Of a DNA stretch of 64,000 nt, positions 52,543 through 53,104 are shown piece after piece. How positions within the stretch are numbered: the first letter of the stretch is position 1; every line of letters begins with the position of its first letter. Position numbers and translations under genes: made by a program. The notes beneath the pieces are model-generated. The model was not told where the DNA came from. It did no database searches and worked only from the letters and a program-made list of their open reading frames with translations. Origin of the DNA: Aptenodytes patagonicus (Eukaryota > Chordata > Aves > Sphenisciformes > Spheniscidae); contig NC_134953.1 in NCBI RefSeq assembly GCF_965638725.1, positions 42,306,454 to 42,370,453 on the forward strand, written 5' to 3'.

Positions 52543-52578
52543 ATGAGCCAGGCCGCGCCGCCGGCCCGCACGCCCTGA
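52543..52578 (+). CDS. PTEN leader uORF 2 (11 codons)
   Basis: ATG AGC CAG ... ACG CCC TGA, encoding [11 protein letters not shown]. The human leader also has an ATGAG-type uORF shortly after uORF 1, though its peptide differs. Its ATGA start overlaps the in-frame TGA (52544-52546) that closes the PTEN frame upstream. A role in tuning initiation is possible; the peptide itself is unlikely to matter. Confidence 0.5.
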
Positions 52579-53104
52579 GGAGCCGCCGCCGCCGCCCCGC
52601 CGCGGAGCGCCCGCCCGCCCGGCGGCGCGGCCCCACCGCGCGGCTCCGGGCCCGCCGCCGCTGCCGCCGCCGCCGCCCCGGGCGGGGAGCGGGGCGGAGC
52701 GGGGCCGGGCCGGGGGGGCGCCCCGCGCCGCTGTCACCATTGCTGGGGCCCGGAGCGCCGGAGAGCTGCTCTCTCCGCCTCCGCCTCGCTCGCCTCAAAG
52801 ACGGCGGCGGCGGCGGCACCCTCAGGGACTCGGCCCGGCTCCGGACCCTCCCTGCTCGGCCGCCGCCGCCGCTGCTCCCGCCCCGCTCGGCGCAGCGGCG
52901 GCAGGAGGAGGAGGGGGCAGCCGCCGCCGCCGGGAGCCGCCGCCGCGGGGGGAGGCGGGCCCGCCTTGGACTGAGCCGCCGGCGCAGCAGGCCCCGCACC
53001 CGGGGCCGCCCGGCGGCCGCCGGCCCGCCGCCGCCTCCCGGCTCCGCGCCTCGCCGCCGCCCGGCCCCTGCGCGCTGTCCCGGAGCGGCCCCCGGCTGCC
53101 AGAC
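52547..53104 (+). CDS. PTEN: in-frame upstream extension of PTEN (PTEN-L/alpha and beta-like, non-AUG)
   Basis: The PTEN frame has no stop for 186 codons before the ATG (last stop TGA at 52544). Translation gives [20 protein letters not shown], then Q and six Arg (codons 52799-52816) with HPQGLGPAP, a poly-Ala/Gly part, and RLPD directly before Met1. As recalled, the human PTEN-alpha extension has VTISRAGNAGELVSP, six Arg followed by HIQGPGP, Ala/Gly tracts and RLPD. The ATT of Val-Thr-Ile is at 52739 in context caccATTg (human PTEN-beta starts at this AUU). A CTG at 52661 lies 26 codons earlier; human CUG lies 27 codons earlier. Predicted extensions are 122 and 148 residues (human 146 and 173). 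Initiation at these codons is inferred. Confidence 0.7.

Follow-up and report, generated by a model that had tools for sequence, protein, structure and literature searches.

The PTEN leader of the penguin Aptenodytes patagonicus carries a start region resembling that of human PTEN-M/PTENβ

Introduction

Two N-terminally extended forms of human PTEN are the closest described systems to the locus considered here: PTEN-L/PTENα, which is CUG-initiated with an extension of 173 residues, and PTEN-M/PTENβ, which starts at an AUU. The AUU of PTENβ is printed in the context GUCACCAUU, and a perfect palindrome of 12 bp, which begins 18 bp past it, is described as critical (Liang et al., 2017; PMC5376652). 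In human constructs, PTENβ was lost on mutation of the AUU and markedly reduced when either the context or the palindrome was disrupted (for the palindrome, the figure legend says "abolishes"), while mutation of UUG621 had no effect (PMC5376652). A run of six arginines (R6, aa 20–25 of human PTENβ) is needed for nucleolar location in human cells (PMC5376652); GFP fusions of the human extensions gave a diffuse cytoplasmic signal (Tzani et al., PMC4892431), and the localization of human extended PTEN is itself disputed. The human leader also holds uORF1, of four codons with a tandem AUG start, and uORF2, of 45 codons (Tzani et al., 2016; PMC4892431). For PTEN-L, a CUG-centred palindrome is named (PMC5376652). 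Two motifs that the human extended forms have in common, though neither defines them, are a membrane-binding helix, at residues 151–174 of PTEN-L (PMC6952770; PMC4892431), and the WDR5-binding SSSRRSS, named in a reference title within PMC12045569.

The AUU is conserved in 52 eutherian mammals (PMC4892431), the widest conservation that we found in print, and conservation of the palindrome is printed for bonobo, killer whale and mouse (PMC5376652). Other near-cognate starts reach further: those of VANGL2-Long and of the C1QL-family N-terminal extensions (AUA, AUU) are reported as conserved outside mammals (PMC11065751; PMC11317171), a likeness to the locus described below, and of 42 upstream regions conserved in mammals, some of which lack near-cognate starts, 16 are also conserved outside mammals (PMC11317171). 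No sauropsid PTEN extension in print was found among the papers listed in a literature search over article text, and the available portions of PMC9789052, PMC7237741 and PMC10393154 yielded no statement on birds and the PTEN extension. A paper on duck PTEN (PMC12129976) introduces PTEN-L and PTENβ as known forms and returns to PTEN-L when discussing its results, and its available text reports no avian extension; the length stated there for duck PTEN is 369 aa, against 403 for human PTEN, a difference of 34. Our guess is that the gene predictions from which primers were designed may have lacked a G+C-rich exon 1 such as the one described below.

Results

The PTEN locus

The window is a 64,000-nucleotide stretch of the Aptenodytes patagonicus genome (contig NC_134953.1, positions 42,306,454 to 42,370,453), and features lie on its forward strand unless stated otherwise. 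The coding part of PTEN exon 1 spans 53105–53183, with a donor GT at 53184; the exon end was set by this GT and the human exon. Starting from the ATG at 53105, 26 of 26 residues match residues 1–26 of PDB chain 7jvx_A. Of the six PTEN_C2 exon matches in the genome (1.35 Gb, 618 contigs), two lie on this contig (C5) and strand, at distances of 36.4 and 44.7 kb downstream. An exon 1 pattern had no exact match in contig collections made up mainly of prokaryote and viral sequence. The G+C content of the leader region is about 75–90%. The human PTEN leader used throughout is a working sequence verified at the printed points only, and the comparison of conservation is one of two species, one sauropsid genome against one human sequence.

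The avian CR1-end repeat has no match within the window, and neither an Rfam match at gathering scores nor a tRNA was found. Elsewhere in the window, at 43471–43529, an AT-rich 29-mer, CTAATAAAGTAATAAAGATTACTTTATTT, stands in two perfect tandem copies. The genome as a whole has at least 150 beta-keratin matches that pass the cut-off, scoring having covered 150 of 380 first-look candidates; such a number marks a sauropsid and suggests a bird, and it served as the lineage test in place of the CR1-end repeat. Of these matches, eight on contig C2 (331–29345) and three on contig C124 (183673–192127) lie at exact 4,112-base steps, which looks like recent tandem amplification.

An open frame upstream of the PTEN AUG

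The original prediction had drawn attention to 186 codons of uninterrupted PTEN frame ahead of the AUG. This frame is indeed found at 52547–53104, directly after an in-frame TGA (52544–52546), and it encodes the residues that had been singled out: AGEL, six arginines followed by His-Pro-Gln-Gly, and RLPD before the Met. Openness is uninformative, however, because 65–70% of dinucleotide shuffles are open too (0.65 over the 186 codons and 0.70 over 122 codons; 2,000 shuffles each), and the open frame was rejected as evidence. On the reverse strand, opposite exon 1 and the leader, there is a 280-aa stop-to-stop open frame (window 52415–53257), probably a by-product of G+C content.

The AUU, its context and the downstream hairpin

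The candidate AUU start lies at 52739–52741 in the context GTCACCATTG (52733–52742), 122 codons from the AUG. Its context matches the printed human GUCACCAUU (PMC5376652) at every letter, and at 52733–52741 the bird has an in-frame AUU preceded by GUCACC; G at +4 is a difference from human. The predicted AUU-initiated extension (52739–53104) has 122 residues, shorter than the 146 of human, as had been noted. The net length change between AUU and AUG is −72 nt, a multiple of three; preservation of the frame could be luck, at about 1 in 3.

An 18-nt spacer (52742–52759), equal to the 18 bp printed for human (PMC5376652), separates the AUU from the sequence GGAGAG-CTGCT-CTCTCC (52760–52776). Its arms, 52760–52765 and 52771–52776, are predicted to form a hairpin of 6 bp with a 5-nt loop that begins exactly 18 nt after the AUU. 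The working human leader reads GGAGAG-TTGGT-CTCTCC at the same place. The palindrome of PTEN-M/PTENβ is present if the printed "12 bp" stands for two 6-nt arms, an equation that is our own interpretation and for which the palindrome letters are those of the working leader. Pair probabilities of the hairpin are 0.90–0.99 for the bird in contexts of 101 to 703 nt; for the working human sequence they are 0.37–0.41 in a 101-nt context and 0.82–0.99 in longer ones. Folding energy is ordinary for such G+C-rich composition (z −0.34, −0.99 and −0.68), and the case thus rests on the position and conservation of the hairpin.

Conservation is greater in the module than in its spacer and loop. Context, AUU and stems are identical to the working human sequence at 21 of 21 positions, against 15 of 23 in spacer and loop (Fisher one-sided p = 0.0028), and identity in the flanks is 3/10 upstream and 8/20 downstream. 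Among 3,000 leader shuffles, none combined an ATT that has a purine at −3 with a stem of 6 bp and 5-nt loop starting exactly at +18, a result that is easy to reach since ATT is rare in this composition; any of seven near-cognates with a purine at −3 and such a hairpin occurred in 3.1%. The exact arrangement GTCACCATT-N18-GGAGAG has two copies in the 1.35-Gb genome, the second of which (on contig C3) continues with GATGCT and so is without a 3′ arm at that spacing. Inside the module 6 of 6 third codon positions are unchanged, compared with 16 of 22 in exon 1 (p = 0.20), and fourfold sites are unchanged at 4/4 and 2/5, respectively; this test was set aside as evidence, the sample being too small. 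The hairpin loop itself contains an in-frame CTG (52766–52768) that has G at −3 and lies 113 codons before the AUG. This CTG corresponds in position to human UUG621 and is a possible further candidate start.

Upstream ORFs

A four-codon uORF1 with a tandem AUG (ATG ATG GGA GTC TAG) is present at 52487–52501, the counterpart of that printed for human (PMC4892431), and a uORF2-like frame of 11 codons occupies 52543–52578. Human uORF1 we take to encode MMEV followed by a stop; against it the tandem AUG, the length and a stop are all kept, the stop being TAG here and TGA in the working human leader. From the start of uORF1 to the AUG of the uORF2-like frame the distance is 56 nt (58 nt in the working human leader), and although this spacing is similar, a frame of the printed 45 codons is absent from this position. 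The conserved part looks mainly like an RNA start module made up of uORF1, context and hairpin.

A PTEN-L start and the missing human motifs

It had also been proposed that the PTEN-L extension is conserved, with a CUG one codon off the human spacing. The spacing holds: an in-frame CTG at 52661–52663, 148 codons upstream of the AUG, precedes the ATT by 26 codons, compared with 27 in human. Its surroundings do not support it as a PTEN-L start. The codon sits within a CCG repeat, CCGCCG(CTG)CCGCCG, in a weak context with C at both −3 and +4, and no CUG-centred palindrome is found there; for this comparison we relied on what we take to be the letters of the human CUG palindrome. A PTEN-L start at 52661 was consequently rejected. 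Compared by eye with the putative human signal peptide as printed in PMC4892431, the sequence from the window's CTG shows no likeness. The MERGGE-poly-Ala sequence is absent from the window's extension, SSSRRSS is not among the 122 residues, and the positions that correspond to the human PTEN-N and PTEN-O starts lack a CUG. The hydrophobic helix sequence before the AUG is missing as well: the last 24 residues include 4 hydrophobic residues and 6 Pro, versus 8 and 3 in the working human sequence, with a similar mean hydropathy by composition (−0.65 versus −0.68).

The extension as a protein

The predicted extension has a pI of 12.0, with 30 Pro, 23 Ala and 19 Arg. Its six arginines (AGA CGG5; 52799–52816) stand at aa 21–26 counted from the AUU, one residue later than in human, and are encoded mostly by a CGG repeat. 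Just 3′ of them, at 52817–52840, a stretch CAC...CAGGGAC-CGG-CCGG is shared with the working human leader without a codon pattern, an apparent second site of nucleotide-level conservation.

Selection on the protein had been argued from AGEL and its synonymous difference, GAG CTG here and GAG TTG in human. That difference holds against the working human leader, but the base concerned is the one that opens the hairpin loop. AGEL consists of the last spacer codon, the 5′ arm (GGA GAG) and the first three loop bases (CTG); since its codons lie in the arm and loop, it cannot separate protein from RNA constraint, and it was rejected as evidence for selection on the protein.

For the best local protein alignment from CUG to AUG the score is 150 in frame, and the two remaining frames reach 132 and 150 (shuffle means 67, 56 and 60, standard deviations near 9); as the scores are alike in all frames, the resemblance follows from DNA homology. 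The MAFFT alignment is unreliable upstream of the AUU, where uORF2 is misaligned, and beyond Arg6, and its single gaps, several of them not multiples of three, were left unused. In a 37-codon core, whose blocks were picked by the author from visible similarity, nucleotide identity is 0.71, 22 of 37 residues are identical, and mismatches fall 11/9/12 on codon positions 1, 2 and 3. The pN/pS ratio of the core is 0.55 in frame versus 1.25 and 0.99 out of frame, and permutations redistributing the mismatches give p = 0.11 in frame versus 0.38 and 0.58. With the module held fixed the in-frame value becomes 0.19, and with Arg6 fixed as well, 0.24; in the exon 1 control the same permutation gave 0 of 5,000. 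In simulations (120 runs each) the power of the test to reach p < 0.05 was 0.90 for omega 0.2, 0.26 for omega 0.5 and 0.02 with no constraint. Strong protein constraint on the core is thus unlikely, given a power of 0.90 at omega 0.2 and an observed p of 0.11, and mild constraint is compatible with the test. These results do not demonstrate protein selection on the extension.

Discussion

The homology put forward in the original prediction stands for the human PTEN-M/PTENβ start region and for Arg6, which is in the corresponding place though one codon later; the support does not extend to protein selection or to PTEN-L. We put at about 0.64 the probability that the bird leader specifies an AUU-initiated, PTENβ/PTEN-M-like form with a 122-residue extension that is older than the bird–mammal split, PTEN-L being unsupported; that the form is translated we infer from the leader itself. 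The likenesses to human PTEN-M/PTENβ comprise the context, the hairpin 18 nt downstream, the VTI codons, AGEL, Arg6-His-x-Gln-Gly and RLPD before the Met, and, further upstream, a tandem-AUG uORF1 followed by a second AUG uORF. Unlike its human counterpart, the remainder of the bird extension is rich in Pro, Ala, Arg and Gly, without SSSRRSS or the membrane-helix sequence. With human PTEN-L/PTENα the bird shares an in-frame CTG almost equally far from the AUU, but not the palindrome, a favourable context or a signal-peptide-like sequence. Bird PTEN, in which protein constraint is putative, differs in this respect from other extensions: that of VANGL2 has several invariant residues across six vertebrates (PMC11065751), and eutherian differences in C1QL4 are almost all synonymous (PMC11317171).

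A plausible course of events is that the sauropsid PTEN leader retains the mammalian PTENβ/PTEN-M start module. Scanning ribosomes would meet two short uORFs and then the AUU in a favourable context, and at the hairpin, 18 nt further on, the scanning complex would come to a pause that places the AUU close to the P site. Such pausing is suggested because structures about 14–15 nt downstream stimulate non-AUG starts, as cited in PMC4892431 and PMC5376652. A minority of ribosomes may then initiate at the AUU and continue in frame into PTEN. The putative product would carry Arg6-HPQG near its N terminus, and if 403 residues are taken for canonical PTEN, its length would come to about 525. One would expect its basic Arg6 to promote nucleolar location and possibly a nucleolar role. 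Selection would act mainly on the RNA module, perhaps also on the first 26–30 residues, the remaining extension being of low complexity and greatly changed.

An alternative is that uORFs, AUU and hairpin serve as regulatory RNA only, tuning the flow of ribosomes to the PTEN AUG, with an extended protein that has no role in birds. The protein similarity that is not frame-specific, the even spread of mismatches (11/9/12) and the absence of the functional human motifs later in the extension agree with this, as does the more than twofold rise in main-frame activity when uORF2 is disabled in human reporters (PMC4892431). We nevertheless consider it unlikely: an in-frame AUU start gives a protein, selected or not, Arg6 and the reading frame are kept, and pN/pS is lowest in frame (0.55). 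Conservation might instead act on the DNA, in a CpG-rich promoter block with transcription-factor sites whose likeness to a translation start is incidental; the G+C content of the region would suit such a block, and the stretch has 17 other weak matches in the genome, as expected of shared G+C-rich repeats. This is very improbable, however, since the letters conserved most are precisely those of the printed context and of both hairpin arms, whose spacing is fixed, whereas loop and spacer vary, and since uORF1 retains a stop despite different stop letters.

Equally improbable is the full claim with which the analysis began, namely that the PTEN-L and PTENβ extensions are both conserved and under protein selection. 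The CTG 26 codons before the AUU (27 in human), the six arginines, AGEL, RLPD and the in-frame pN/pS of 0.55 speak for it. Against these stand the missing CUG-centred palindrome, C instead of G at +4 of the CTG, and the lack of MERGGE-poly-Ala, SSSRRSS, the hydrophobic helix and the PTEN-N and PTEN-O CUGs; moreover, an omega of 0.2 would give p < 0.05 in 90% of 120 simulations. We return, then, to the AUU-initiated form. A broader proposal, which we offer tentatively and think somewhat less probable than not, is that the AUU–hairpin was the ancestral amniote device, that PTEN-L with its signal-like leader, WDR5 motif and membrane helix was a later addition on the mammal side, and that birds may have a stripped-down PTEN with Arg6 as a nucleolar tag.

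If the module has been kept since the bird–mammal split, about 320 million years ago, the AUU form would be long established in PTEN biology. Features of the extension would then sort into old ones, the start module and Arg6, and those that are not shared, the signal-like leader, the WDR5 motif and the membrane helix. The bird and human leaders, having the module in common and little else, offer a natural comparison for experiments.
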